DNA of 64,000 nucleotides from Antedon mediterranea (taxonomy: Eukaryota; Echinodermata; Crinoidea; Comatulida; Antedonidae). The stretch spans positions 28,632,001 through 28,696,000 of the forward strand of contig NC_092674.1 of NCBI RefSeq assembly GCF_964355755.1, written 5' to 3'. The notes under the pieces are model-generated. The model did no database searches. It had not been told where the DNA came from and saw only the letters and a program-made list of their open reading frames with translations. Each line of letters starts with the position of its first letter. Position 1 is the stretch's first letter. Of the stretch, positions 8,001 through 61,533 are shown one piece after another. The position numbers and the translations under genes are program-made.

Positions 8001-11000
8001 CATAATGAAAAAATACACCAAAATTGTTTTATAGTTTTGTAATATTCCTTATTTTAAGGTCCGAAAGAAGACAAACCTTTTCGTATACCACTTAAAATAC
8101 TTGTGGACTTTCAACCAAGAAATAATGATGCCTTGGCTACTGTTCAGGGATTAGCCCACAACCCCAGGCTAAGGTGAGTATACAATTAAAATATATATTT
8201 TTTACAAAAAGTAATTCATTAAAATTAAATTAGGGTAAATCAAGGTAAAACAATCATTCTCGTATATAATAACAGAAAATACTAGTGGTTTGACTAGTGG
8301 CGTAATAATTGTTTAATAATGTATATTTTGTTGATACAGGATCGCCGTCCCAGTCCAGAAAGATGTGCGGAGTGTCATCGATTACTTAACCTCTAAGTGG
8401 ACACCAACCACCATTAAACTGGTAACATAATTTCTCTCATACAAATATGTCAATATCTTTTGAAACAACATAATACTGTAGAAAAGTTATAAAAATTAAA
8501 AACAGGGTACAGCCCATATCGCCATTTTATCATCACTTTTGAGTGTGTATTGTTGATAAGCTAACATAAAGCTCTCTCTACACTATCAAACTTTATGTGA
8601 CAAAAACATGTGATGTGCCCATATATCGACATGATGATGTCATAAAACTAGCATATTTGGGTATATCACTACCATGTTTGGCCACATCACACTTTTTTTG
8701 TCAAACTAGTTTGATAGTGTAGACAGAGCTTAAGACAACTATGGATCTTTATGAAATCTACATATTTAAAAAATAACTATCAATTTTTAATTATATTTAT
8801 AGTTGCAGACATTGAAGCCCAGTGAAAAGAATCATGAAACAAATATTATTTTACACATACCGGAAAACTCGGGCATCAAACCTTTACAAGATGTTACTGG
8901 TAAATTTATTCATTGGAGCTCAAAGACCCCATTTACAATGGGCCAAGGACTTACTAGTGTTAGCAACAACAAAAATTGTCAATCAAATTCGTCCAGCCCA
9001 CAATCGACGGCAAAATTGAAACTGCAGGCCAGTAAAATGTTGTCTACCGAAGGGACTATTAAGAACGACAATAAAGGGAAAGGAGTCGATTTAACACGGA
9101 AAAAATGCAATACGGGAGAGGTGTCAAATTGTCTTGAATCGACGACATCGGTTTTAACTAATCATTGTGTTGAGGCTTCGAATGAAGCTGAACTGGACAC
9201 AAGTAAAACTGACCAGTTGCTAACAAGTACAGAGACAATGGCCAACACTGAAGCGATTACTGCTTCTGGAAACCATCAAGAAAATATTGGTTCTGTTACG
9301 GCTAAAACGAAACAAAAGCAAACAAAAGACTTCTGTTTGAGAAGCGGACTCACTTTAGAGAATGCACGGGATATTAATTTTACAGATGTATATTTAATGG
9401 TAAATACAGTACAGGGGTTATTTTAGTCATCCATCTAATATAGTATATCATATACTGTCATATTAGGGAGGTTTCACAACCTTACGAATACGATAACGAA
9501 AACGGATACGTCACACATTTGTGAAACTTTTGAGCTGATTCCCATTTCATATTCGTAAAGCGTATTCGTGTTGACGAATATCACCAGTCATATTCGTAAC
9601 TACAAAACAAGTATAGTTTTTGATGTATTTTGCACATTTTGCATTTGAATCAGGAATGATTCATGATTATAATATAATTATACTTTTTATTGAAAGTAAT
9701 TTACTAAAGTAATTTACTAAAATGCCATGTCAATTTTGATAAATAGCAGTTTTTAAAGTCCTCATTCGCTCAAACTTACCGCAGTCATATTTTGGACGGC
9801 GCCCCTTAATATTTTGTTTCAATTTTTACTGACTTACGAAAAACGAATACGTGTGCGTGATGTATCCGTTATCATATTAGTAAATTGCAAAACCTCCCTA
9901 ATATCAAGATTATCACTACAGTCAACTTTTTCAATGCTGGAGTTTCAGAAAACTGAAAACTCTCTCAAAACCAGACTTTTCTTGAGGTCCAAAAGATCAT
10001 TAAAAACAAATTTTGAATACCAGGCTTTTCAGGATTTAACCAGAAATTAGGCCAGACTATGGGTGTGCGGTATTGGGAGAGTTGACTGTATTACTAGCAT
10101 CAGAATCACCACTATCATAATCACTATCATGATCATCATTATCATCAGAATCACACTATCATCATCATCATCGGGATCATTATTATCATGATCATCACTA
10201 TCTTAAAACATATAATAGAAATGATTTCTTTCTCACAATAATATATTTCTTTTCTACCACTGTAGTTAGGGATGCCGTCAAGATTAAAATTTGAGTATGA
10301 ATTTATTTATGAGGAGAAGGCAGAAAAAGAGAGCACCTTGAAAACACTGCAAAAGCTGGTACATTTGGCAAAAAGTCAGGTTGAACAAATAAATGCACCA
10401 AAAAAGGTAAGTTCCTGCTTCTTAAGCTCTGTCCACACTAGTTTAACAAAAAAAATGTGTGATGTGCCCAAATATGGTAGTGCTATGCCCAAATATGACA
10501 TCATCATGTCCATATATGGGCACATCACATAAAGTTTGATAGTGTAGACAGAGCTTTATACATTATTGACTTTGTGAATACATCAACTACATTAAAAGCT
10601 TTCACATTTAAAATATTTTTGTTTACATTTCCTTTCTAAGTGAATGAAATAATGTCTAGAATATCTTTCTATAACTATTATGCAATCAAAGAAAAATACT
10701 GTTTAATAAATTGGGAATTTATGTACATAAATTAGAATATAATTTAAATAATTATCTTTATAGATGGTGTCGGTAGGCACAGCTACGTCACCGATTCGTG
10801 GCGTTCAACAAGCAGGGAACGGCATAAACAGAAACGACATATTTCCCATCCGAAATACAAACGGTAAAAACGATGCAGCGGATTTGGCATTGAACAAAGG
10901 AATAGTTCGCATCGCGGGAGTGGTCAATCCCGGAAACGTGACTGCAAATGGGTCAATAGTTGATAAGGACACAGGGGTGTTTGTTACACCCAAGGTATCA

Positions 11001-14000
11001 TCGGCGCCATCTGTAGTTAAGAAAAAATTTGGAGGAGAATCAATGTCGCAAATTCAGGATAGACTTTTTATGCAACAGCTCAACTTTCTACATGTAAGTA
11101 CTTGTCTTGTAACAATTCATGATAATTGTAAAATTGAAAATTAATTCCTAACCACACGCAGCTGATGAATAGTTCTTACAAAAATTCTAATTATTATTAT
11201 AAAGATAATCAAATTTTTATTTTGTAACGGAAGCTAGTCCACAAACAGTTGTTTCCATGAGACTGAAAGAAATAAAAATAGTGTTCACAATGAACTAACT
11301 ATCAATTCACATAACTAAAGCTCTGTCTACACTATCAAACTTAATGTGACAAAAAAATGTGATGTGCCCAAATATGGACATGATGTCATATCACTACCAT
11401 ATTTTGGCATAGCACTACCATATTTGGGCACATCACACTTTTTTGGTCAAACTAGTTTGATAGTGTAGACAGAGCTTAAGACTGCTGGATTAACACAGTT
11501 TTTTATATTCAGTGGTTTGAGTATCACAATCAATAAATGTACTAAAAATGTATATTGGTTATATTTACAGAGACAACAATCCCTCAATCAAAGAGGAAGA
11601 AAGATTAAAGCTCCTATTGTTGTACAGGTAAGTTATTTTTACTCCAAATTTTGAGACAAAAATGTGCAATAAACTAGTTGTTGTTTAAAAGAAAGTAATG
11701 ATTTTTTTGTAAAAAATAATTATGTATACATAATGTAATTTTGCAATTCCTCAGCGCCACCTATTGCCAAGACCACAATCTTCTGCCCCAATGCGTAACG
11801 TAATGTCGTTAACATCAACTGGGAAGTTTACACCGGTTGATGCCAGTTCTTTAAAAACAGTAGACCCTTCCAGTGCTAAGGTGAAGATCAAACCAGTTGT
11901 CCGTACACCGGTGAACATCGCTCCTAAAAATCCACCACCAACTCCAGGTAACAAAAATTTTGTTTTTTTGTCTTACTTACCCTATTACAGTCAGGGAAAG
12001 AATGGCAAAAGGCTTCTTACTTTCTAGGAATTTTATCAGATATTCTATATTTTTTTGACAACTTTGTAACGTGACGACAGTGCAGATTTTCAACTAATTG
12101 ATTAAACAAAGTGTACGCAATACTAGGGGTGTCCCCTGAGTAGGGGTTGTCTGCATATACTGCTCTTTGTTAGTTCACAGGAGAGTCTTCTGAATAGGGA
12201 TGTCCCAAATGAGTTACAAAATACAACAAATTGGTTAAAGATATTTTGTAACCCCCTACTCGTCTCGAAAGATGTACTAGTTTCTTTAAATTGCACATGA
12301 GCTACATGTGTGTGCACTGGACCTATGGTTTATAGTCCTTATCTGAGAAGACTTCTACCACCAGAACCATAGAGCGAGTGAGCCTTGAACCCTTGCCGAT
12401 GTTATGGCTATGCAATTATGGTTCCACTGTCTTAACCACTCAGCCACAAACAAATTGGTTAAAAATATTTTGTTATACAGTATATACTGTTATTCATTGC
12501 CATAATACTTTAACTTTCTATTCTTAATAGATTTTAGTTAAATTTCTTTTCTCTTCCAGTTGTTATCAGTCCAATCAACAGTCCTGTGTCGTTTGTTACC
12601 AACTCACCACCGGTAATGATGCAACAATCTATGCAATTATCTACTCCAGTCGCCGTTGTACCTATCTCTAATCCGTCGGTAAGATAGAAATCCAATTTGT
12701 TGATTCTCTTTACTATAATTTAAATGTTTGTCTTGAATAAGTGCCCTATCAGGTTAATGTGAACCTTCGCTGTAAAGTATGTGCTGAAGTAATTTGAATT
12801 TTCTGAATTTGAATATTTATTTATACTGGGCAACCTCTTAGTCAAAGACTGGTCTCCCAGAAGGCCCAGTTATGATCAGTTGCTGTGATGTACTAGTAAA
12901 CCAGGTTAACCCCCTACTTGTCTCGGAAGATGTATTAGTTTCTTTAAAGTGCAAATGAGCTACATCTGTGCACTGGACCTACGGTTTATAGTCCTTATCC
13001 AAGAAGACTTTTACCACCAGAACCATGGAGCGAGTGAGCCTTGAACCCTTGCCAATGTTATGGCTACGTAATTATGGTTCCACTGTCTTAACCGCTTAAC
13101 AACTCACTCGCAATTGTAAAAAGTTTTTTTTATTTTCATTTAGGTGTTGCCAATTGTTGCTGCACCAACTCCGACTTGTTCCATTGTTGCCGTTTCTATG
13201 ACAACAAACCAGAATTTCGCTCCACAGCCAACAATGGTAACGTCTGTTCCTACGACACCTCAAACCAAGGTTACCGATAGCAGTATCCTATGCACTCCTA
13301 GCCCGCCAAAAATGGGTACAAGTTTCACAGAAACTAAGGACAGTCGACCGCCATTTAGCATTTCACCACCACCAAACCTATCCTCGATATTGGATATATC
13401 GTTGCCTTCTGCTGATTGTACGGAACCACCGATTGGATCGGAATCTCTCATTGCCATGGCAATGGACACTGCTGGACTCACTGGTAAGATATTGGAAACT
13501 ACTAGTGACTACAATTATTCGAAGATGAAATTTTGAGATACAAAAGTTGAAATAATTAAAACATGCAAATTATTGTTTTCATTGTAGGTATTGCTGAAAC
13601 ATTGGCGTCTAGTAGTTCATCGATAGATGAGAAATCGGAACAGAATCGAGAAACTGGTGCTTCCACGCCACCTCCCAGTACTGTCGGTTCTACAAACTCC
13701 CCATTTAAACTGACCTCTGACCCTAATTGGCTGAATGCAGAAACGGTATGTAATAAAAAAAGTTTTCTTTACAGATGGTAAGCCATATCAGTGTGAACAC
13801 TGCTTTACACTAGGGCCCTCTAATCACAAAATATGTACCACAAGACAAATTTATAATAACTTTATCAAATACTACTCAAAAACATCTCCAAATTTTGAAA
13901 CCAAGGTTTGAATGTACAATGCTTAGGCACTAGGAACTATATATAAATCCAGGATTTATTATTTGACGAAAACCTTTATATGTTTATATTATAGATTAGA

Positions 14001-15247: not shown

Positions 15248-15412
15248 AAATCTCTGTCTACACTATCAAACTAGTTTGACAAAAAAGTGTGATGTGCCCA
15301 AATATGGTAGTGATATGCTTAAATATGTTAGTGGAGTATGACATAATCATGTCCATATATGGGCACATCACATTTTTTTGTTACATCAAGTTTGATAGTG
15401 TAGACAGAGCTT
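15248..15412. mobile_element. Palindromic MITE, family 1
   Basis: Full copy downstream of the CRAMP1 stop. If the CRAMP1 3'UTR is long, it would be transcribed as a hairpin. Confidence 0.85.
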
Positions 15413-27704: not shown

Positions 27705-30700
27705 ATGTTGGTACCATATGTTGAAATTTACAAAGAAAATGTTGTAGAGGTACGAATATAAATCTATTTAGTACTGAAAAGTTCAGTTTTTTGTTAACAA
27801 ATAGTTGTTATGAAGCTAAAGGGAACTAGTTTAAGTTGCTGGTCAATTCGTCCCACCTGGACGGAACTGAAAAGCAGTCATACTATATACGCACGGTAGA
27901 CCCGGTGACGCCCGGTAGGCCCGGTCGGTATGCTTGTATGATATCAATATTTAACTTTTTATAATATATTTTTCCAGGAAATACAAGTTAAATATAAAAT
28001 CTAAAAATTATTGGAATATTGTTAAATGTTTCATCATACATTATCATCAACGCAACGTAACGTGTTAAAATGCCACAAAACATCACTTATCACAGAGGGC
28101 GGTCTTCAGTTTTCGTAATAAACCTGGTAATCCTTATTTTCACAGTTTTTCAAATAAAAAATGTCACAAATATCACAATAACATAAATAATTGTAGCATA
28201 CTTTACTTGAGTTGAGTATCATTAAATCCTACCGGCCCCAACTGGCGATACTATGGTTTATGGAAAATAACTGATACAAGAATAATTAACAAGTGGAACT
28301 CGTTGCCCGAATTGATTGTCAATAGCAAGAGTGTAAACTCATTCAAAAACAAACTTGACAAACACTCACACACATATGAGAGAAGAGGCTGAGGCTCCTT
28401 ACGAGTTTAAAAACTCAGTGCCTCTTAACTTTACTAAAGGTAAGAATTACTAAAGGTAAGAATGGTTTATGGAAAATAATTGTGGTTTTTATGAATTATT
28501 TCATTTTTTATTATTGTTAAAAATTCATTCTAATGTACAGTGCCATGATTATTTTAATTTTGCTACAATGAAATACTAATAACAAGTTTTATATATCAAT
28601 ATTCTAATCTAGAGATTAAAATTCAGCAAATCAGAATTTGTGAAGTTTGGTTTCTTACTGGGCAATTACAGGTATGTGGCTTGTGTGCTTTTTCAAAGAC
28701 ATAAAGTACTAACCCACTAGGCCTACTGACTGATATCTTCACAAACAAACACTCTTTGAAGTCAGACGTCCTGTGTACTACAGTGCAGATCACTAACATT
28801 CATTTGTGCACCAGATTTTAAAACATACAGTATTTCAATTCTTTTCCTTAGCAATTATGATGAAGTTTCTATAACAATAAGCTCTTGCAGCAGTGTATGT
28901 GATTCCAATGATGACGTGGTTTCAACACTAGATGCAACTTCACATGTTCTTTCTGGAGGTACTGCATTCATATTGTTTATACATCCAAAAAAAACTGAAT
29001 ATTTCAACAAAGTTATTTTTCTGTTAAGGCCAACTTACACAGACGAGCAGTAACTGTAAGCGGAAAACCGCGTAGCTTGTCGTAGAATCTGTATCTATCC
29101 TGAACAGAAACCACCCGTCCGGTCCGCGTTGTGTGCTAAATGGTCATAAGGAATAACATAATTTCACTATTACCGTTACCGCTCGTCTGTGTAAATTGGC
29201 GTTAATACATTTACTTTATAAAGTGAGTTTCAAAAGAAAATAAGTATTTGATTTCTTTCAATATTTAGATACAAGTATAGTAGGACTTTGGTTTAAAACA
29301 ACAGAAAACGTGGATACTCCTCTCATAGAGAAATTCTGTTTAGAAAAAGTTTCTGATAAATTGAAAGTAAGTTGTACTAATCATACAATATTATTATCAA
29401 TTTTTTTTTTCTATTTAAAGCTCTGTCTACCCTTTCAAACTTTATGTGACAAAAAAATGATGATGACGTCATATCCCTACCGTATTTGAGCATCATAAAT
29501 AAATAGGTTTTATTATAATAATAAAGTTAAAAGATCTCACTAGTTACCTAAATCATTATGGTAATTTTGTAATGAGTATTCATAAATTATCTTTATATTT
29601 TTAGCCATGGAGAAACTTTCTTGTCATATATGCCTTACCTAAAGATGAAGCCATCACCAGTATACATAGTGAGAATATTTTCATTTATAACAAAGTAGAA
29701 CATTCAGTAACACCAGCTTCTGTGAACATCCTACAAACGCCTGATTTTTTGCGGACGTTCCGAATCGCTGCTGATCTACCGGTGATGATGACCCTTAGCA
29801 AGGATACTGGTGAGTTTAGCCGCTGCATAAATTTGAATATTTGACTCCTGCGCAGAATTATATGCTTGAATGATCAGATACAACGAAGTAACCCTATTGT
29901 TAGCACACAAGAGTATCGTCCATTTATTGTTTTCTTTCTCAACTTTTAACACTGTTGATTTGCCTAAATTCAAATTTATTTTTTACATTTATATTGTCTT
30001 TTTTGCTTTTGGACATAAATAAATGTCTTTCAATTGAATAAAACAAAATAAATTCTTTATTCATTGTCTTTTTCAGATATAACACGTACGGCAGTGCAAC
30101 ACATCAAAGACTTAAAGCAACAAATTGATTCGGAGAGGACAGTGTTTCATATTAAGAACAGCAGTGTATTGCTAGGTATAGATAAACCAGTAATTGTTAA
30201 CAATACCAGGATTGATGATGCGACCTCTGCAAAGGAGATATTGAAATACATTGAAGATGATGAGGTGGATAGCTTTAGTGTTAAAAAAGCAAAGAAAACT
30301 AAGAAGAAAATCTCAGATGAAGAGGTATGAAATATATTTTTGGTTCTACTACTAGGAATTATTAATAAGGAAGAGGATAAGGAATCTCAATCTAAAAATG
30401 TCTTAAGCTCTGTCCACACTATCAAACTAGTTTTACAAAAAAAGTGTGAATAAGGTAGTGATATGCCCAAATATGGTAGTGATATGACATCATCATTTCC
30501 ATACAGTATACGGGACATATTTTTGTCACATAACGTTTGATAGTGTAGATAGAGCTTATCAAACTAGTTTGACAAAAAACTGTGATGTTCCAAAATATGA
30601 TAGTGATATACCCAAATATGGTAGTGATATGACATCATCATGTCCATCACATATTTTTGTCACATAAAGGTTGTTAGCTAGACAGAGCTTTAAAGTTCAA

Positions 30701-33700
30701 TTTATTATAATATTGAACCAATGTCGGTTTCTTGTTAGTTCCTTAAATTCCAACTTAATTCTTATGTTTACTTTGTAGGTTGTTGATGTTTCTTTACTGA
30801 CGCGAATAACACATCCAGCACATAGTATAGCTTCACCAGTGGCTTACTACAAATCTGGTAAATTTATTAAAGATGTATATGTAAAAAAACATGAAAAATG
30901 AAGATTAGTTTTCATAAAGTTATTCACTTCTGTAAAAAAACAATTATTTCACATATAAAAAGACAAAAAAAACGTTTAATTTTAACCAAAAAATCTTGTC
31001 ACGTTTGCTAAATATTTTGTTTTATACTATATGCCTCATTGAAGTATACACTTTCATCATTCACCTCATGCCATTATTTGTACCATTGCACTCATAAACA
31101 TTCATTTTTTGTATTTATTACTACATTTGATGAAACATTGTATTTTAATTATGTGTTTTATCTTTTAGGGTTAACACAACAAGTACAGTTCGCTCTACCA
31201 GTAAATGTTGTGGTTCAAGTAAACGAAAACAAAACTCCAGTTTCCAAACTTCCTAAACTTTTTATCAACGCTGTATGTAAACAATTAGCTGCCATGGCAA
31301 CATGTGTGCAAAAGTATTCAACAAATGAGATTTGCATTGTAAGGCCATTCCATTTTCAACCATGGGGGTGTAACCAGTTTGTAACAATTATATACCCAGA
31401 TGGGAAGACTGATAAAGATTTAGGTAGGTTATGTTTTCTTGTCAAAGTATTGACTTACCAAGTATTGATAATTTTCACAAACACACTTTCGATTTGCAAT
31501 GACTAACAGCCAAACTACATGTGCTCATGCAGAAATATTGAGACATGTTTTCTCACTCTCCACTTTGTAAAAAATAACATACATACAAAAGAAATAGAGC
31601 CAACAAATACTAAATTTCCCTTATATCTCTGTTTTTCTAGAATCTGAAAGAAGGACATTACATGAAATGCTGTTACTCCCTCTGGATAAACCGTTACTCA
31701 GAAGAAATAGTGCTTATCGCTTCCCAGCTGATAAAAAGAATATTGTGTACTTAGAAAATACACATATTGGTTTAAAAAATGACGGATGTGAGTTACTTGT
31801 TTATATTTCGTACAAATATAGCCAAAATGTAATATAATATTTTCTTGATCTTGGAAGTCTTAGGCTCTGTCTACACTATCAAACTTTATGTGAAAAAAAA
31901 AGAAGCTAAAATTAGGAATAAAGCAACTGTACATGTCCAATATTACCTCATTGATCTTTAGTAATAATAGTAATAGTAATTGAGTAATAAATGTACATTT
32001 TCTTGTACGTACATAAAAGAACTTTTGATGAGATATCGTAGTAATAAATGTATAAATAAATTTGATACTCATATTTCAATTTTTTCCAAAGCTGACGGCA
32101 GCAAAGTTTACCTCGTGCAGGGAACCTATTCCTATCACCATTACATGCAAGATAAATTTAACGATGATAAATGGGGTTGTGCTTATCGCTCGTTACAAAC
32201 CATTGTATCGTGGTTTCGACATCAAGGCTACACAGACGTGCCAGTACCGAGTCATAGGGTAATCCAACAGACCTTAGTCGATGTTGGGGATAAAGATGCT
32301 AAGTTTGTCGGTTCTAGAAATTGGATTGGATCGATAGAAGTGTGCACTGTTCTTGACCAACTGCTAGAGGTAAAGTCCGTTTTCCACTAGGCAAATTTAT
32401 TTGCGCAAATCGAAAGTGCGCATGCGTATTAATATTTTTCATCTACCTTTTGTGAAGTGGAAAAATGCACAACCAATCATAACTCAAGAATGTTTGATTT
32501 GCGCAAATATATTCGCTGATGAAAACAAGACTAAGGGTCTTGGCTCTTTTCATACTTGTAATAACTACTGAAATATTTATCATTAAAGAAGACAGTATAT
32601 TATATTAGTATGGAACGCCTCCTCTGCCTTCAGTTCACATTTATCATGCAGTACACACCAATCGTCATGCAGTACACACCAATCGTCATGCAGTACACAC
32701 CAATGGTCATGCAGTACACACCAATGGTCATGCAGTACACACCAATCGTCGTTCACATTTATCATGCAGTACACACCAATGGTTATGCAGTACACACCAA
32801 TCGTCATGCAGTACACACCAATGGTCATGCAGTACACACCAATCGTCATGCAGTACACACCAAACATCATGCAGTACACACCAATCGTCATGCAGTACAC
32901 ACCAAACATCATGCAGTACACACCAATGGTCATGCAGTACACACCAATTGTCATGCAGTACACACCAATCGTCATGCAGTACACACCAATCGTCATGCAG
33001 TGAAATATTGCGTAATTTATACCGCCACCTATCGACAAAATCGAATATCACGTGACGTTTATTAGACGGCTGTAAAACTAGGCCATCGACTCTAAGATTT
33101 CTTTTATGTTTGACATACTGTACTTATTTTAACCGCTACACATCTCTGTGAATGCTCTGTTTTTTATATATACAATAATTTATTATGCGAGACACAGGCG
33201 TATGGAACGCCTCCTCTGCCTTCAGTTCACATTTATCATGCAGTACACACCAATCGTCATGCAGTACACACCAATGGTCATGCAGTACACACCAATGGTC
33301 ATGCAGTACACACCAATGGTCATGCAGTACACACCAATCGTCGTTCACATTTATCATGCAGTACACACCAATGGTTATGCAGTACACACCAATCGTCATG
33401 CAGTACACACCAATGGTCATGCAGTACACACCAATCGTCATGCAGTACACACCAAACATCATGCAGTACACACCAATCGTCATGCAGTACACACCAATGG
33501 TCATGCAGTACACACCAATTGTCATCCAGTACACACCAATCGTCATGCAGTACACACCAATCGTCATGCAGTGAAATATTGCGTAATTTATACCGCCACC
33601 TATCGACAAAATCGAATATCACGTGACGTTTATTAGACGGCTGTAAAACTAGGCCATCGACTCTAAGATTTCTTTTATGTTTGACATACTGTACTTATTT

Positions 33701-36700
33701 TAACCGCTACACATCTCTGTGAATGCTCTGTTTTTTATATATACAATAATTTATTATGCGAGACACAGGCGCGGCTAGGAGGCCATTGCAATTATTGAAT
33801 TCCATAAAAGAAGTTTAAATAGTCTTAGTTTTACAGCCGTCTAATAAACCTCACGTGATATTCGATTTTGTCGATAGGTGGCGGTATAAATTACGCAATA
33901 TTTGACTGCATGACGATTGGTGTGTACTGCATGACGATTGGTGTGTACTGCATGACAATTGGTGTGTACTGCATAATGTTTGGTGTGTACTGCATGACGA
34001 TTGGTGTGTACTGCATGACGATTGGTGTGTACTGCATGATAAATGTGAACGACGATTGGTGTGTACTGCATGACAATTGGTGTGTACTGCATGACCATTG
34101 GTGTGTACTGCATGACGATTGGTGTGTACTACATGACGATTGGTGTGTACTGCATGATGTTTGGTGTGTACTGCATGACGATTGGTGTGTACTGCATGAC
34201 GATTGGTGTGTACTGCATGACCATTGGTGTGTACTGCATGACGATTGGTGTGTACTGCATGATAAATGTGAACTGAAGGCAGAGGAGGCGTTCCATACAG
34301 GCGCGGCTAGGAGGCCATTGCAATTATTGAATTCCATAAAAGAAGTTTAAATAGTCTTAGTTTTATGGAACGCCTCCTCTGCCTTCAGTTCACAATGGTC
34401 ATGCAGTACACACCAATGGTCATGCAGTACACACCAATGGTCATGCAGTACACACCAATGGTCATGCAGTACATACCAATGGTCATGCAGTACACACCAA
34501 TCGTCGTTCACATTTATCATGCAGTACACACCAATGGTCATGCAGTACACACCAATGGTCATGCAGTACACACCAATCGTCATGCAGTACACACCAAACA
34601 TCATGCAGTACACACCAATCGTCATGCAGTACACACAAAACATCATGCAGTACACACCAATGGTCATGCAGTACACACCAATTGTCATGCAGTACACACC
34701 AATCGTCATGCAGTACACACCAATCGTCATGCAGTGAAATATTGCGTAATTTATACCGCCACCTATCGACAAAATCGAATATCACGTGACGTTTATTAGA
34801 CGGCTGTAAAACTAGGCCATCGACTCTAAGATTTCTTTTATGTTTGACATACTGTACTTATTTTAACCGCTACACATCTCTGTGAATGCTCTGTTTTTTA
34901 TATGTACAATAATTTACTATGCGAGACACAGGCGCGGCTAGGAGGCCATTGCAATTATTGAATTCCATAAAAGAAGTTTAAATAGTCTTAGTTTTACAGC
35001 CGTCTAATAAACCTCACGTGATATTCGATTTTGTCGATAGGTGGCGGTATAAATTACGCAAGATTTGACTGCATGACGATTGGTGTGTACTGCATGACAA
35101 TTGGTGTGTACTGCATAATGTTTGGTGTGTACTGCATGACGATTGGTGTGTACTGCATGACGATTGGTGTGTACTGCATGATAAATGTGAACGACGATTG
35201 GTGTGTACTGCATGACAATTGGTGTGTACTGCATGACCATTGGTGTGTACTGCATGACGATTGGTGTGTACTGCATGACGATTGGTGTGTACTGCATGAT
35301 GTTTGGTGTGTACTGCATGACGATTGGTGTGTACTGCATGACGATTGGTGTGTACTGCATGACCATTGGTGTGTACTGCATGACGATTGGTGTGTACTGC
35401 ATGACGATTGGTGTGTACTGCATGATAAATGTGAACTGAAGGCAGAGGAGGCGTTCCATATAGTTTTACAGCCGTCTAATAAACCTCACGTGATATTCGA
35501 TTTTGTCGATAGGTGGCGGTATAAATTACGCAATATTTGACTGCATGACGATTGGTGTGTACTGCATGACGATTGGTGTGTACTGCATGACAATTGGTGT
35601 GTACTGCATAATGTTTGGTGTGTACTGCATGACGATTGGTGTGTACTGCATGACGATTGGTGTGTACTGCATGATAAATGTGAACGACGATTGGTGTGTA
35701 CTGCATGACAATTGGTGTGTACTGCATGACCATTGGTGTGTACTGCATGACGATAGGTGTGTACTGCATGACGATTGGTGTGTACTGCATGATGTTTGGT
35801 GTGTACTGCATGACGATTGGTGTGTACTGCATGACGATTGGTGTGTACTGCATGACCATTGGTGTGTACTGCATGACCATTGGTATGTACTGCATGACGA
35901 TTGGTGTGTACTGCATGATAAATGTGAACTGAAGGCAGAGGAGGCGTATGGAACGCCTCCTCTGCCTTCAGTTCACATTTATCATGCAGTACATATGGAA
36001 CGCCTCCTCTGCCTTCAGTTCACATTTATCATGCAGTACACACCAATCGTCATGCAGTACACACCAATCGTCATGCAGTACACACCAATGGTCATGCAGT
36101 ACACACCAATCGTCATGCAGTACACACCAATCGTCATGCAGTACACACCAAACATCATGCAGTACACACCAATCGTCATGCAGTACACACCAATCGTCAT
36201 GCAGTACACACCAATCGTCGTTCACATTTATCATGCAGTACACACCAATCATCATGCAGTACACACCAATCGTCATGCAGTACACACCAAACATCATGCA
36301 GTACACACCAATTGTCATGCAGTACACACCAATCGTCATGCAGTACACACCAATCGTCATGCAGTCAAATATTGCGTAATTTATACCGCCACCTATCGAC
36401 AAAATCGAATATCACGTGAGGTTTATTAGACGGCTGTAAAACTAAGACTATTTAAACTTCTTTTATGGAATTCAATAATTGCAATGGCCTCCTAGCCGCG
36501 CCTGTGTCTCGCATAATAAATTATTGTATATATAAAAAAACAGAGCATTCACAGAGATGTGTAGCGGTTAAAATAAGTACAGTATGTCAAACATAAAAGA
36601 AATCTTAGAGGCGATGGCCTAGTTTTACAGCCGTCTAATAAACGTCACGTGATTTTCGATTTTGTCGATAGGTGGCGGTATAAATTACGCAAAATTTCAC

Positions 36701-39700
36701 TGCATGACGATTGGTGTGTACTGCATGACGATTGGTGTGTACTGCATGACAATTGGTGTGTACTGCATGACCATTGGCGTGTACTGCATGATGTTTGGTG
36801 TGTACTGCATGACGATTGGTGTGTACTGCATGATGTTTGGTGTGTACTGCATGACGATTGGTGTGTACTGCATGACGATTGGTGTGTACTGCATGACGAT
36901 TGGTGTGTACTGCATGACCATTGGTGTGTACTGCATGATAAATGTGAACGACGATTGGTGTGTACTGCATGACCATTGGTGTGTACTGCATGACCATTGG
37001 TGTGTACTGCATGACCATTGGTGTGTACTGCATGACGATTGGTGTGTACTGCATGACCATTGTGAACTGAAGGCAGAGGAGGCGTTCCATAAGTACACAC
37101 CAATCGTAATGCAGTACACACCAATCGTCATGCAGTACACACCAATCGTCATGCAGTACACACCAATCGTCATGCAGTACACACCAAACATCATGCAGTA
37201 CACACCAATCGTCATGCAGTACACACCAATCGTCATGCAGTACACACCAATGGTCATGCAGTACACACCAATTGTCATGCAGTACACACCAATCGTCGTT
37301 CACATTTATCATGCAGTACACACCAATCGTCATGCAGTACACACCAATCGTCATGCAGTACACACCAATCGTCATGCAGTACACACCAAACATCATGCAG
37401 TACACACCAATTGTCATGCAGTACACACCAATCGTCATGCAGTACACACCAATCGTCATGCAGTCAAATATTGCGTAATTTATACCGCCACCTATCGACA
37501 AAATCGAATATCACGTGAGTTTTATTAGACGGCTGTAAAACTATATGGAACGCCTCCTCTGCCTTCAGTTCACATTTATCATGCAGTACACACCAATCGT
37601 CATGCAGTACACACCAATGGTCATGCAGTACACACCAATGGTCATGCAGTACACACCAATGGTCATGCAGTACACACCAATCGTCGTTCACATTTATCAT
37701 GCAGTACACACCAATGGTTATGCAGTACACACCAATCGTCATGCAGTACACACCAATGGTCATGCAGTACACACCAATCGTCATGCAGTACACACCAAAC
37801 ATCATGCAGTACACACCAATCGTCATGCAGTACACACCAAACATCATGCAGTACACACCAATGGTCATGCAGTACACACCAATTGTCATGCAGTACACAC
37901 CAATCGTCATGCAGTACACACCAATCGTCATGCAGTGAAATATTGCGTAATTTATACCGCCACCTATCGACAAAATCGAATATCACGTGACGTTTATTAG
38001 ACGGCTGTAAAACTAGGCCATCGACTCTAAGATTTCTTTTATGTTTGACATACTGTACTTATTTTAACCGCTACACATCTCTGTGAATGCTCTGTTTTTT
38101 ATATATACAATAATTTATTATGCGAGACACAGGCGCGGCTAGGAGGCCATTGCAATTATTGAATTCCATAAAAGAAGTTTAAATAGTCTTAGTTTTACAG
38201 CCGTCTAATAAACCTCACGTGATATTCGATTTTGTCGATAGGTGGCGGTATAAATTACGCAATATTTGACTGCATGACGATTGGTGTGTACTGCATGACG
38301 ATTGGTGTGTACTGCATGACAATTGGTGTGTACTGCATAATGTTTGGTGTGTACTGCATGACGATTGGTGTGTACTGCATGACGATTGGTGTGTACTGCA
38401 TGATAAATGTGAACGACGATTGGTGTGTACTGCATGACAATTGGTGTGTACTGCATGACCATTGGTGTGTACTGCATGACGATTGGTGTGTACTACATGA
38501 CGATTGGTGTGTACTGCATGATGTTTGGTGTGTACTGCATGACGATTGGTGTGTACTGCATGACGATTGGTGTGTACTGCATGACCATTGGTGTGTACTG
38601 CATGACGATTGGTGTGTACTGCATGACGATTGGTGTGTACTGCATGATAAATGTGAACTGAAGGCAGAGGAGGCGTTCCATAAAACTAAGACTATTTAAA
38701 CTTCTTTTATGGAATTCAATAATTGCAATGGCCTCCTAGCCGCGTATGGAACGCCTCCTCTGCCTTCAGTTCACAATGGTCATGCAGTACACACCAGTCG
38801 TCATGCAGTACACACCAATGGTCATGCAGTACACACCAATGGTCATGCAGTACACACCAATGGTCATGCAGTACACACCAATCGTCGTTCACATTTATCA
38901 TGCAGTACACACCAATGGTCATGCAGTACACACCAATTGTCATGCAGTACACACCAATGGTCATGCAGTACACATCAATCGTCATGCAGTACACACCAAA
39001 CATCATGCAGTACACACCAATCGTCATGCAGTACACACCAAACATCATGCAGTACACACCAATGGTCATGCAGTACACACCAATTGTCATGCAGTACACA
39101 CCAATCGTCATGCAGTGAAATATTGCGTAATTTATACCGCCACCTATCGACAAAATCGAATATCACGTGACGTTTATTAGACGGCTGTAAAACTAGGCCA
39201 TCGACTCTAAGATTTCTTTTATGTTTGACATACTGTACTTATTTTAACCGCTACACATCTCTGTGAATGCTCTGTTTTTTATATATACAATAATTTATTA
39301 TGCGAGACACAGGCGTATGGAACGCCTCCTCTGCCTTCAGTTCACAATGGTCATGCAGTACACACCAATCGTCATGCAGTACACACCAATCGTCATGCAG
39401 TACACACCAATGGTCATGCAGTACACACCAATGGTCATGCAGTACACACCAATCGTCGTTCACATTTATCATGCAGTACACACCAATGGTCATGCAGTAC
39501 ACACCAATCGTCATGCAGTACACACCAATGGTCATGCAGTACACACCAATCGTCATGCAGTACACACCAAACCTCATGCAGTACACACCAATCGTCATGC
39601 AGTACACACCAAACATCATGCAGTACACACCAATGGTCATGCAGTACACACCAATTGTCATGCAGTACACACCAATCGTCATGCAGTACACACCAATCGT

Positions 39701-42700
39701 CATGCAGTACACACCAATCGTCATGCAGTGAAATTTTGCGTAATTTATACCGCCACCTATCGACAAAATCGAAAATCACGTGACGTTTATTAGACGGCTG
39801 TAAAACTAGGCCATCGACTCTAAGATTTCTTTTATGTTTGACATACTGTACTTATTTTAACCGCTACACATCTCTGTGAATGCTCTGTTTTTTTATATAT
39901 ACAATCATTTATTATGCGAGACACAGGCGCGGCTAGGAGGCCATTGCAATTATTGAATTCCATAAAAGAAGTTTAAATAGTCTTAGTTTTACAGCCGTCT
40001 AATAAACCTCACGTGATATTCGATTTTGTCGATAGGTGGCGGTATAAATTACGCAATATTTGACTGCATGACGATTGGTGTGTACTGCATGACAATTGGT
40101 GTGTACTGCATGATGTTTGGTGTGTACTGCATGACGATTGGTGTGTACTGCATGACGATTGGTGTGTACTGCATGATAAATGTGAACGACGATTGGTGTG
40201 TACTGCATGACAATTGGTGTGTACTGCATGACCATTGGTGTGTACTGCATGACGATTGGTGTGTACTGCATGACGATTGGTGTGTACTGCATGACGATTG
40301 GTGTGTACTGCATGATGTTTGGTGTGTACTGCATGACGATTGGTGTGTACTGCATGACGATTGGTGTGTACTGCATGACCATTGGTGTGTACTGCATGAC
40401 GATTGGTGTGTACTGCATGACGATTGGTGTGTACTGCATGATAAATGTGAACTGAAGGCAGAGGAGGCGTTCCATACAGGCGCGGCTAGTATGGAACGCC
40501 TCCTCTGCCTTCAGTTCACATTTATCATGCAGTACACACCAATCGTCATGCAGTACACACCAATCGTCATGCAGTACACACCAATGGTCATGCAGTACAC
40601 ACCAATCGTCATGCAGTACACACCAATCGTCATGCAGTACACACCAAACATCATGCAGTACACACCAATCGTCATGTAGTACACACCAATCGTCATGCAG
40701 TACACACCAATGGTCATGCAGTACACACCAATTGTCATGCAGTACACACCAATCGTCGTTCACATTTATCATGCAGTACACACCAATCGTCATGCAGTAC
40801 ACACCAATCGTCATGCAGTACACACCAAACATTATGCAGTACACACCAATTGTCATGCAGTACACACCAATCGTCATGCAGTACACACCAATCGTCATGC
40901 AGTCAAATATTGCGTAATTTATACCGCCACCTATCGACAAAATCGAATATCACGTGAGGTTTATTAGACGGCTGTAAAACTAAGACTATTTAAACTTCTT
41001 TTATGGAATTCAATAATTGCAATGGCCTCCTAGCCGCGCCTGTGTCTCGCATAATAAATTATTGTATATATAAAAAACAGAGCATTCACAGAGATGTGTA
41101 GCGGTTAAAATAAGTACAGTATGTCAAACATAAAAGAAATCTTAGAGTCGATGGCCTAGTTTTACAGCCGTCTAATAAACGTCACGTGATATTCGATTTT
41201 GTCGATAGGTGGCGGTATAAATTACGCAATATTTCACTGCATGACGATTGGTGTGTACTGCATGACGATTGGTGTGTACTGCATGACAATTGGTGTGTAC
41301 TGCATGACCATTGGTGTGTACTGCATGATGTTTGGTGTGTACTGCATGACGATTGGTGTGTACTGCATGATGTTTGGTGTGTACTGCATGACGATTGGTG
41401 TGTACTGCATGACCATTGGTGTGTACTGCATGACGATTGGTGTGTACTGCATAACCATTGGTGTGTACTGCATGATAAATGTGAACGACGATTGGTGTGT
41501 ACTGCATGACCATTGGTGTGTACTGCATGACCATTGGTGTGTACTGCATGACCATTGGTGTGTACTGCATGACGATTGGTGTGTACTGCATGATAAATGT
41601 GAACTGAAGGCAGAGGAGGCATATGGAACGCCTCCTCTGCCTTCAGTTCACATTTATCATGCAGTACACACCAATGGTCATGCAGTACACACCAATGGTC
41701 ATGCAGTACACACCAATCGTCATGCAGTACACACCAATCGTCATGCAGTACACACCAAACATCATGCAGTACACACCAATCGTCATGCAGTACACACCAA
41801 TGGTCATGCAGTACACATCAATCGTCATGCAGTACACACCAATGGTCATGCAGTACACACCAATTGTCATGCAGTACACACCAATCGTCGTTCACATTTA
41901 TCATGCAGTACACACCAATCGTCATGCAGTACACACCAATCGTCATGCAGTACACACCAAACATCATGCAGTACACACCAATCGTCATGCAGTACACACC
42001 AATCGTCATGCAGTCAAATATTGCGTAATTTATACCGCCACCTATCGACAAAATCGAATATCACGTGAGGTTTATTAGACGGCTGTAAAACTAAGACTAT
42101 TTAAACTTCTTTTATGGAATTCAATAATTGCAATGGCCTCCTAGCCGCGCCCGTGTCTCGCATAATAAATTATTGTATATATAAAAAACAGAGCATTCAC
42201 AGAGATGTGTAGCGGTTAAAATAAGTACAGTATGTCAAACATAAAAGAAATCTTAGAGTCGATGGCCTAGTTTTACAGCCGTCTAATAAACGTCACGTGA
42301 TATTCGATTTTGTCGATAGGTGGCGGTATAAATTACGCAATATTTCACTGCATGACGATTGGTGTGTACTGCATGACGATTGGTGTGTACTGCATGACAA
42401 TTGGTGTGTACTGCATGACCATTGGTGTGTACTGCATGATGTTTGGTGTGTACTGCATGACGATTGGTGTGTACTGCATGATGTTTGGTGTGTACTGCAT
42501 GACGATTGGTGTGTACTGCATGACCATTGGTGTGTACTGCATGACGATTGGTGTGTACTGCATGACCATTGGTGTGTACTGCATGATAAATGTGAACGAC
42601 GATTGGTGTGTACTGCATGACCATTGGTGTGTACTGCATGACCATTGGTGTGTACTGCATGACCATTGGTGTGTACTGCATGACGATTGGTGTGTACTGC

Positions 42701-45700
42701 ATGACCATTGTGAACTGAAGGCAGAGGAGGCGTTCCATAGGCTAGGAGGCCATTGCAATTATTGAATTCCATAAAAGAAGTTTAAATAGTCTTAGTTTTA
42801 CAGCCGTCTAATAAACCTCACGTGATATTCGATTTTGTCGATAGGTGGCGGTATAAATTACGCAATATTTGACTGCATGACGATTGGTGTGTACTGCATG
42901 ACGATTGGTGTGTACTGCATGACAATTGGTGTGTACTGCATGATGTTTGGTGTGTACTGCATGACGATTGGTGTGTACTGCATGACGATTGGTGTGTACT
43001 GCATGATAAATGTGAACGACGATTGGTGTGTACTGCATGACAATTGGTGTGTACTGCATGACCATTGGTGTGTACTGCATGACGATTGGTGTGTACTGCA
43101 TGACGATTGGTGTGTACTGCATGACGATTGGTGTGTACTGCATGATGTTTGGTGTGTACTGCATGACGATTGGTGTGTACTGCATGACGATTGGTGTGTA
43201 CTGCATGACCATTGGTGTGTACTGCATGACGATTGGTGTGTACTGCATGACGATTGGTGTGTACTGCATGATAAATGTGAACTGAAGGCAGAGGAGGCGT
43301 TCCATACTCCTCTGCCTTCAGTTCACATTTATCATGCAGTACACACCAATCGTCATGCAGTACACACCAATCGTCATGCAGTACACACCAATGGTCATGC
43401 AGTACACACCAATCATCATGCAGTACACACCAATCGTCATGCAGTACACACCAAACATCATGCAGTACACACCAATCGTCATGCAGTACACACCAATCGT
43501 CATGCAGTACACACCAATCGTCATGCAGTACACACCAATGGTCATGCAGTACACACCAATTGTCATGCAGTACACACCAATCGTCGTTCACATTTATCAT
43601 GCAGTACACACCAATCGTCATGCAGTACACACCAATTGTCATGCAGTACACACCAATCGTCATGCAGTACACACCAATCGTCATGCAGTACACACCAATC
43701 GTCATGCAGTCAAATATTGCGTAATTTATACCGCCACCTATCGACAAAATCGAATATCACGTGAGGTTTATTAGACGGCTGTAAAACTAAGACTATTTAA
43801 ACTTCTTTTATGGAATTCAATAATTGCAATGGCCTCCTAGCCGCGCCTGTGTCTCGCATAATAAATTATTGTATATATAAAAAACAGAGCATTCACAGAG
43901 ATGTGTAGCGGTTAAAATAAGTACAGTATGTCAAACATAAAAGAAATCTTAGAGTCGATGGCCTAGTTTTACAGCCGTCTAATAAAGGTCACGTGATATT
44001 CGATTTTGTCGATAGGTGGCGGTATAAATTAGGCAATATTTCACTGCATGACGATTGGTGCGTACTGCATGACAATTGATGTGTACTGCATGATGTTTGG
44101 TGTGTACTGCATGACGATTGGTGTGTACTGCATGATGTTTGGTGTGTACTGCATGACGATTGATGTGTACTGCATGACCATTGGTGTGTACTGCATGACG
44201 ATTGGTGTGTACTGCATGACCATTGGTGTGTACTGCATGATAAATGTGAACGACGATTGGTGTGTACTGCATGACCATTGGTGTGTACTGCATGACCATT
44301 GGTGTGTACTGCATGACCATTGGTGTGTACTGCATGACCATTGGTGTGTACTGCATGACGACTGGTGTGTACTGCATGACCATTGTGAACTGAAGGCAGA
44401 GGAGGCGTTCCATAGATGGCCTAGTTTTACAGCCGTCTAATAAACGTCACGTGATATTCGATTTTGTCGATAGGTGGCGGTATAAATTATGCAATATTTC
44501 ACTGCATGACGATTGGTGTGTACTGCATGACGATTGGTGTGTACTGCATGACAATTGGTGTGTACTGCATGACCATTGGTGTGTACTGCATGATGTTTGG
44601 TGTGTACTGCATGACGATTGGTGTGTACTGCATGATGTTTGGTGTGTACTGCATGACGATTGGTGTGTACTGCATGACCATTGGTGTGTACTGCATGATA
44701 AATGTGAACGACGATTGGTGTGTACTGCATGACCATTGGTGTGTACTGCATGACCATTGGTGTGTACTGCATGACCATTGGTGTGTACTGCATGACGATT
44801 GGTGTGTACTGCATGACCATTGTGAACTGAAGGCAGAGGAGGCGTTCCATAGAGGCGTTCCATATATTAGTTCATTTAAAATTTGTGTTCAAGTTTTTAT
44901 TTAGTAGAAACCTTATTTATGTATGTTGTATACAAATTGTCTTAAATTAATGTGTTTGTTATTTGTAGGTTACCTCAAAAATAATGTTTGTAAATACTGG
45001 CTCTGAAATGGCTAACAAAGGCAGAGAATTAGCCCACCATTTTGAAACACAGGGAACACCAATCATGATAGGTAAGCACTGTCTACACTATCCAACTTTA
45101 TGTGACAAAAAAATGTGATATGATGTGCTCATATATGGACATGATGATGTCATCACTACCATACTTGTTTTGTAGGGGCCCTCATGAGACAAGCTTATGC
45201 TTCTAGTGCGGGCCCCAGTTGTTGTTGTCATAATAATAACTGAATAAATGTATATGAACTATACTTTAGTATATCACTACCATTTCGGCATGTCACACCC
45301 TTTTTGTCAAACTAGTTTGATAGTGTAGACAGAGCTGTAGTGTCCCCTACCCAAGAATTAGAAGTGTTCTCAACATGTACTTAGCATAAATTATGATTAC
45401 GTCAGAGTAGGGAAAACATCTGACCAATTTATCCTCTCTTACCCACAGGTGGAGGTGTGTTAGCTCACACTATTCTGGGTGTTGACTTCAATGATAAATC
45501 TGGTGCTTTAAAGTTCCTTATTCTAGATCCACATTATACAGGCTCAGAAGACATTAAAATCATACAGGATAAGGTGTGTTAGCATTTTTATTTTTGTTTA
45601 TCACTGGTTGAGTGGCTAAGCTCTTTTGATGTCTTCTCTACTGATATTAAACAAATCGCCTCTCTTTTTCTACCACATCAATATAAACCTCTGGTCTTGG

Positions 45701-60696: not shown

Positions 60697-60825
60697 TAAG
60701 CTCTGTCTACAGTGTCAAACTTTATGTGATGTGCCCATATATGATGATGTCATATCACTACCCTATTTGGGCATATCACTACCCTATTTGGGAACATCAC
60801 ACTTCCTTTGTTTGATAGAGCTTTA
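60697..60825. mobile_element. Palindromic MITE, family 1 (right end worn)
   Basis: The left AAGCTCTGTCTACAGTGTC is clear; the right end is shortened to TTTGATAGAGCTTTA. It lies 140 bp after the ANKRD10 stop, probably in its 3'UTR. Confidence 0.75.
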
Positions 60826-61288: not shown

Positions 61289-61533
61289 AGCTTGGTTTTC
61301 ACTAGCGACACAACGTAAGAAAATGCCTTTTCATTAATTGTGCTTTCCTCTGCCTGCCTGCGATTTTTACAACAATGGTGCGTCGTCGGTTCCCACTTGT
61401 GATTACGCAATGCATCACTTTGCGTCGATACGTTGCCACGTTGCGTTCTAGTGGGAACCACGCTTTACGCAATACAGCACTTTGCGTCGCTGCGTTGAGT
61501 TGCGTCGCTAGTGGGAACCACGCTTACAGTAAA
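61289..61533. mobile_element. MITE cluster, 'AAAGCTTGGTTCCC' family
   Basis: Opens AAAGCTTGGTTTTCACTAG and contains two inverse ends GTTCTAGTGGGAACCACGC (about 61445) and GTCGCTAGTGGGAACCACGC (about 61510), each with TTGCGTCG repeats, so an element plus an extra half-copy. Confidence 0.65.

Follow-up and report, generated by a model that had tools for sequence, protein, structure and literature searches.

A nest of foldback elements with 21-bp repeat arms in a crinoid UFSP2 intron and its probable relation to IS3EU transposons

Eleven nested copies in an intron of UFSP2

A 64-kb stretch of the 354-Mb genome of Antedon mediterranea (contig C5, 28632001-28696000; hereafter the window) was analysed for the repeated DNA that occupies its positions 32609-44864. 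De-nesting resolved these ~12 kb into eleven copies of a single non-coding foldback element of ~1.1 kb. The nest is intronic in UFSP2, because exons on either side of it match this gene (PF07910, 1.6e-61; 3oqc_A, 5.2e-79), and it represents a case of a gene intron gaining 12 kb from one single element family. Nest copies are named L1-L10 and X, while loci fetched from the genome carry three-digit numbers (L002, L017 and so on).

The order of the nest was established by matching the 6-bp flanks of element ends. Eight end pairs in the window carry exact 6-bp target site duplications (TSDs), namely TATTAG, CAGGCG, TAGTTT, GAGGCG, AGTACA, AAACTA, CAGGCG and GGCTAG. L1 is the sole copy among the eleven that sits in non-element DNA, and contains L2, L3 and L4; L4 contains L5, L6, L7 and X; L7 contains L8 and L9, and the right end of L9 contains L10. 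The individual features are listed below.

within 31980-32390: UFSP2 exon, upstream of the nest (PF07910, 3oqc_A)
32609-44864, plus strand: L1, outer element, 1139 bp when de-nested, TSD TATTAG; its pieces lie at 32609-33200, 34304-34363, 35467-35946 and 44858-44864
33201-34297, plus strand: L2, 1097 bp, in the loop of L1, TSD CAGGCG
34364-35460, plus strand: L3, 1097 bp, at the loop/arm border of L1, TSD TAGTTT
35947-44851, minus strand: L4 together with all that is nested in it, TSD GAGGCG, inserted in the terminal repeat at the right of L1; 111 bp of its loop are gone
35994-37091, minus strand: L5, 1098 bp, in the left arm of L4, TSD AGTACA
37544-38682, plus strand: L6, intact reference copy, 1139 bp, in L4, TSD AAACTA
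38745-43306, plus strand: L7 with its inserts, 1139 bp when de-nested, without a TSD, beside the deletion in the L4 loop
39316-40476, plus strand: L8, 1161 bp, in the loop of L7, TSD CAGGCG, same element position as L2
40490-41621, minus strand: L9, within the L7 loop, joined to L10 at its right end
41622-42739, minus strand: L10, 1118 bp, inserted in L9 at the same GAGGCG site of the right terminal repeat that L4 occupies in L1
43307-44414, minus strand: X, 1108 bp, first 10 bp gone, right flank GATGGC at the edge of the L4 loop
44969-45071, plus strand: UFSP2 exon, downstream of the nest (PF07910, 3oqc_A), with borders set by reading of the sequence

The ends of the element are TATGGAACGC/GCGTTCCATA, with TATGG..CCATA as the terminal five bases at the window copies, and an end scan found ten left and ten right 10-bp termini with zero mismatches inside 32609-44864. 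Between these ends, the architecture is that of a foldback transposon, in which a short middle separates long inverted arms made of short tandem repeats. In BLAST alignments, the inverted arms of ten copies match over 430-501 bp with 88.9-92.1% identity, the figure for the eleventh, the loop-deleted L4, not being comparable. In L6, the loop spans element positions 473-646 (174 bp), and a regular expression counted 16 and 17 of the 21-bp units in the two arms. Once their inserts and one copy of each duplicated 6-mer were excised, L1 and L7 each measured 1139 bp, the length of intact L6. Pairwise identity among the ten copies other than L4 is 96.5-99.9%.

Three copies without a clean pair of duplications, at 38745-43306 (L7), 41622-42739 (L10) and 43307-44414 (X), are irregular through small deletions. 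Beside L7, the sequence lacks 111 bp of the L4 loop, the left flank and the initial 10 bp of X, losses for which a single adjacent deletion would account. Where L4 sits in L1, a tandem pair of 13-bp repeats GAGGCGTTCCATA is retained at 44839-44864; at the L9/L10 junction, one of the two 13-bp units was probably lost and one base changed. The GGCTAG pair at 40490-42739 encloses two elements, L9 and L10.

The original prediction described a foldback transposon nest of eleven ~1.1-kb copies, with arms of 430-500 bp built from a 21-bp tandem unit, a loop of ~175 bp and defined ends. The copy number, the coordinates, the arms, the loop and the ends were all reproduced, and the de-nesting, the ends and the 6-bp duplications support its description as a foldback nest. 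It had counted clean 6-bp duplications at seven insertions; the duplications hold, but the count becomes eight end pairs.

Other repeats were noticed in the window. A dispersed ~21-bp repeat like GTGATATGCCCAAATATGGTA, in 2-3 copies each and on either strand, is found at 670-713, 1339-1402, 8647-8690 and 11387-11430, with further sites at 15289-15333, 30582-30630 and 60751-60800; by eye, its sequence is not that of the foldback arms. A tandem pair of 62-bp units (TTACGCAATACAGCACTTTGCG...) lies at 61403-61525. Rfam families and tRNAs gave no match anywhere in the window.

Copies across the genome and their target duplications

The first 20 bases of the element have 339 genome matches at ≤3 mismatches (177 and 162 by strand), versus 2 matches for a reversed control pattern. 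About 100 of the 339 ends, all with zero mismatches, were located from C1 up to this window on C5, and flanks were fetched for each of them, as well as from some of the remaining contigs, known from an earlier genome search. Pairing of ends in the fetched loci gave 58 pairs: the flanks of 53 agree over exactly 6 bp and none over more, one pair has 5 bp and four differ by a single mismatch. Another 39 ends are unpaired, including both far ends of a copy split between L043 and L044. Since the pairing of ends itself required agreement at 6 bp, or nearly so, the informative observations are that agreement goes no further than 6 bp in any pair and that the duplication is also present, on different chromosomes, at simple loci with a single copy. 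Segmental duplicates (L042 with L043/44; L045 with L052, the latter by shared flanks) are not independent. A second subfamily, B, was also recognised, with arms in common and a different loop.

Relatedness was assessed by comparing 38 copies and from a tree with strong support on 9 of 32 inner branches. The best match lies off-nest for seven of the eleven nest copies (L3, L4, L6, L7, L8, L10 and X), examples being L3 with 99.9% to a C6 copy, L6 with 100% to a C1 copy and L10 with 99.8% to a C3 copy. For L5, one off-nest copy and L7 tie as best match, and L1, L2 and L9 are equally close, to one decimal, to L6 in the nest and to L017 on C1. In the tree, the nest copies are spread over several groups that include off-nest members. 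Three pairs of copies (L002/L006, L013/L022 and L025/L026) are identical in the compared columns despite different duplications and chromosomes. Judged from these relationships, the nest is a record of separate, recent insertions, because its copies fall into several subfamilies, each with members on other chromosomes as close as, or closer than, the nest mates.

Two features point to a known superfamily. According to passages of PMC12730594, IS3EU families of rust fungi have 6-bp TSDs and the termini TAYGG..CCRTA, and a passage of PMC10045372 describes IS3EU by TA..TA ends and a 6-bp duplication. The crinoid element has the same duplication length, and the termini TATGG..CCATA occur at the window copies and at the fetched loci, which had been found by element or end-pattern match. 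IS3EU membership rests on the ends and the duplication because no transposase-bearing partner was found among the copies inspected. With a probability of roughly 0.8, the elements of the nest are non-autonomous foldback DNA transposons that depend for their movement on an IS3EU-type DDE transposase acting in trans.

These results bear on the original prediction in three ways. It could name no cut-and-paste family with certainty, yet TATGG..CCATA with 6 bp is the IS3EU signature published in passages of PMC12730594. At single-copy sites, where it might have failed, 6-bp duplications are present elsewhere in the genome. That the block might be an assembly artefact, another ground for refutation that it gave, is very improbable, as the copies fall in several subfamilies with off-nest members.

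Self-insertion, reused positions and alternative explanations

Insertion of the element into its own copies is frequent. In the window, ten of the eleven copies are self-inserted. Outside the window, 7 of the 53 items on C1-C5 are located within another copy, the 53 being inflated by L051 and L055, counted once per unpaired end, and by the inclusion of segmental duplicates; among the other fetched loci, chosen by match quality, the count is 7 of 31 items. By simple arithmetic, ~170 copies of ~1.1 kb make up ~0.05% of the genome, a target that degraded copies would enlarge, and ~0.03 self-insertions would be expected among the 53, versus the 7 observed.

Exact positions within the element are also used repeatedly. 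CAGGCG was used twice in the loop, GGCTAG/CTAGCC twice, TAGTTT/AAACTA twice (the site of L6 in L4 is the element position of L3 in L1, AAACTA being TAGTTT reversed), GTAGAC twice in the B loop and GAGGCG twice in the terminal repeat, one of these probably. Within the 21-bp unit, GTACAC/GTGTAC was hit six times, at L009, L013, L036, L054, L061 and L063; the arm insertion in the window (AGTACA) is one base off this register, and L032 is a further likely case of reuse that the scripted test did not flag. Composite duplication as the cause of the reused sites was judged unlikely from copy comparison. In unique (31) and self-inserted (15) sites alike, the duplication has G or C at its outer bases and three bases outside it, in a profile that is symmetric by construction (reverse complements were added) and that uses an assumed background and no significance test. 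GTACAC and three other registers of the 21-bp unit agree best, and equally, with this profile; local preference alone therefore does not explain the reuse.

We tentatively propose that the element is a foldback lineage within IS3EU whose 21-bp units serve as putative landing pads, so that it would target its own copies and accumulate as nests at favoured sites. The transposase would cut at TATGG..CCATA and join across a 6-bp stagger, an IS3EU transposase mobilising the element in trans. The 21-bp units, corresponding to two helical turns, would offer the transposase a row of putative binding sites, raising mobility and keeping transposition complexes near existing copies, while the exact landing point would be set by the weak local preference for G/C at the duplication's outer bases and three bases outside. 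A host that tolerates insertions into an intron-borne copy would allow the nest to grow. If the landing-pad reading is true, this would be a self-targeting transposition that keeps insertions out of genes. The near-identical copies, exact duplications and reused positions make self-targeting directly testable.

The excess of self-insertions might instead reflect survival and not targeting, harmless intronic insertions being kept and others purged. A non-coding copy as target breaks no gene and the window nest is intronic, both of which agree with survival. However, much of an animal genome is non-coding, insertions outside the window strike ~0.05% of the genome at the rate given above, and exact positions recur. 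Survival bias is a partial alternative to self-targeting, and doubtful as an explanation of the whole excess.

Assignment to a different 6-bp superfamily (Polinton-related, hAT6 or Dada), or to one not yet described, is improbable. The termini of Polinton, hAT and Dada differ from TATGG..CCATA, although no transposase is linked to the ends of the present element. Passages of PMC12730594 record hAT families with 6-bp TSDs, and one of PMC10045372 has Polinton making 6 bp, but the terminal TATGG..CCATA fits the TAYGG..CCRTA given for IS3EU in the former. That the array grew chiefly through duplication of composites, in tandem or as segments, or that it is an assembly artefact, is very improbable: copy-bearing segmental duplicates do occur in the genome (the two sets named above) and L1, L2, L6 and L9 are mutually close (99.3-99.9%), but the nest copies span several subfamilies that have members off the nest, two inserts sharing one position are unlike in length and sequence (L2 versus L8, 1097 versus 1161 bp, 98.4%) and eight exact duplications nest in order.

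Several points weigh against an IS3EU lineage with self-targeting. Some of the excess of self-insertions could come from selection or local hopping. At single target sites, palindromy does not exceed chance, with 0.74 of 3 base pairs (~0.8 expected, an estimate); with the single sites at chance level and the profile symmetric by construction, a palindromic target was dropped. The located ends, ~100 of 339, run from C1 to the window on C5, and coverage of the rest of C5 and of C6-C11 is in part only. A copy with these ends and a transposase gene, proposed at the outset as a check, was not found among the longer copies inspected or by profile search: none of the frames of L030, L042, L043/44, L045 and L046 reads as an IS3EU transposase, the one frame put to Pfam gave no match, and L038 was inspected as DNA only. 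A search of the genome with the IS481 profile gave 61 scored matches, zero above the family cut-off; its control gave signal in 9 of 14 genomes and exceeded the cut-off in 0. A transposase-like gene at L068 (below) shows no TATGG end pair.

The candidates for an autonomous partner were set aside individually. By reading of its frames, the 5.9-kb copy at L030 (1075-7013) is a foldback element split by a Gypsy-type retroelement with long terminal repeats; the copy is still flanked by its 6-bp duplication TCTATC. L042 (5.1 kb) and L043/44 (9.6 kb) are mutual segmental duplicates with AATTAT on both sides, and no transposase could be linked from their interiors; they lie on C5 at 13.23 and 14.11 Mb, ~0.9 Mb apart, as a 5-10 kb foldback-ended composite with remnants that, by reading only, resemble long interspersed nuclear elements. 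L045 and L046 have no long open frame. Fourteen of 15 inspected IS481-profile matches look Gypsy-type, on the basis of frames and not of a profile, and were rejected as IS3EU transposases. The fifteenth, the gene at L068 (C7, minus strand), has integrase (rve_3, below the Pfam cut-off) and OTU protease domains and is interrupted by a stop; its closest named relatives are in sea urchins (up to 61% identity), and broken or partial copies occur elsewhere in the genome. On C1-C5, no L068-type copy lies within 100 kb of an element end among the ends listed, by eye.

Two fetched loci hold further features. At L060 833-1330, just inside a one-ended foldback copy, there is an open frame of ~137 codons from the first ATG with two CxxC motifs, for which no Pfam family was found at cut-off; the right end of this copy was not found in 5.6 kb of further sequence. 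At L038 1254-3262, the loop of a copy is split by a ~0.85-kb insert with inverted arrays of a GTCAACTCGGCC-type repeat at its borders, perhaps another foldback-like element.

Comparison with known systems

The TU elements of sea urchin have short tandem repeats in their arms, as does the present element, and a duplication of about 8 bp in contrast to 6 bp here. Galileo, Newton and Kepler of the P superfamily, first classed as Foldback-like, share long, internally repetitive arms with it; passages of PMC2775673 give Galileo 7-bp duplications with the consensus GTAGTAC, whereas those found here are 6 bp. Among foldback elements of Mutator type, Tm1 of root-knot nematodes resembles it in the short tandem units of its arms (13-15 bp), with one 1080-bp copy described, but has different ends, some members that encode a transposase, and duplications of 8-10 bp, mostly 9 (passages of PMC3169594). 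Tetris of Drosophila virilis is likewise a foldback element with tandem-repeat arms and an unknown autonomous partner, with longer units (~220 bp) and longer duplications (8-10 bp; passages of PMC4079207). The 6-bp duplication thus separates the crinoid element from both.

The IS3EU/GingerRoot superfamily shares with it TA..TA ends and a 6-bp TSD; the very long arms of 21-bp tandem repeats and the lack of a detected transposase set the present element apart. No foldback elements tied to IS3EU were found in the open-access literature under the one spelling searched, which is not proof that the family is unnamed, and among the matches listed for IS3EU DNA transposons, no foldback IS3EU appears in titles or abstract openings. 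The IS3EU literature is represented here by passages of PMC10045372, PMC12730594, PMC5753468 and PMC8268682. The foldback design is thought to have arisen independently in transposon lineages, most known cases being assigned to Mutator (passages of PMC4079207). An IS3EU foldback, if true, would be one more such lineage and would support convergence.

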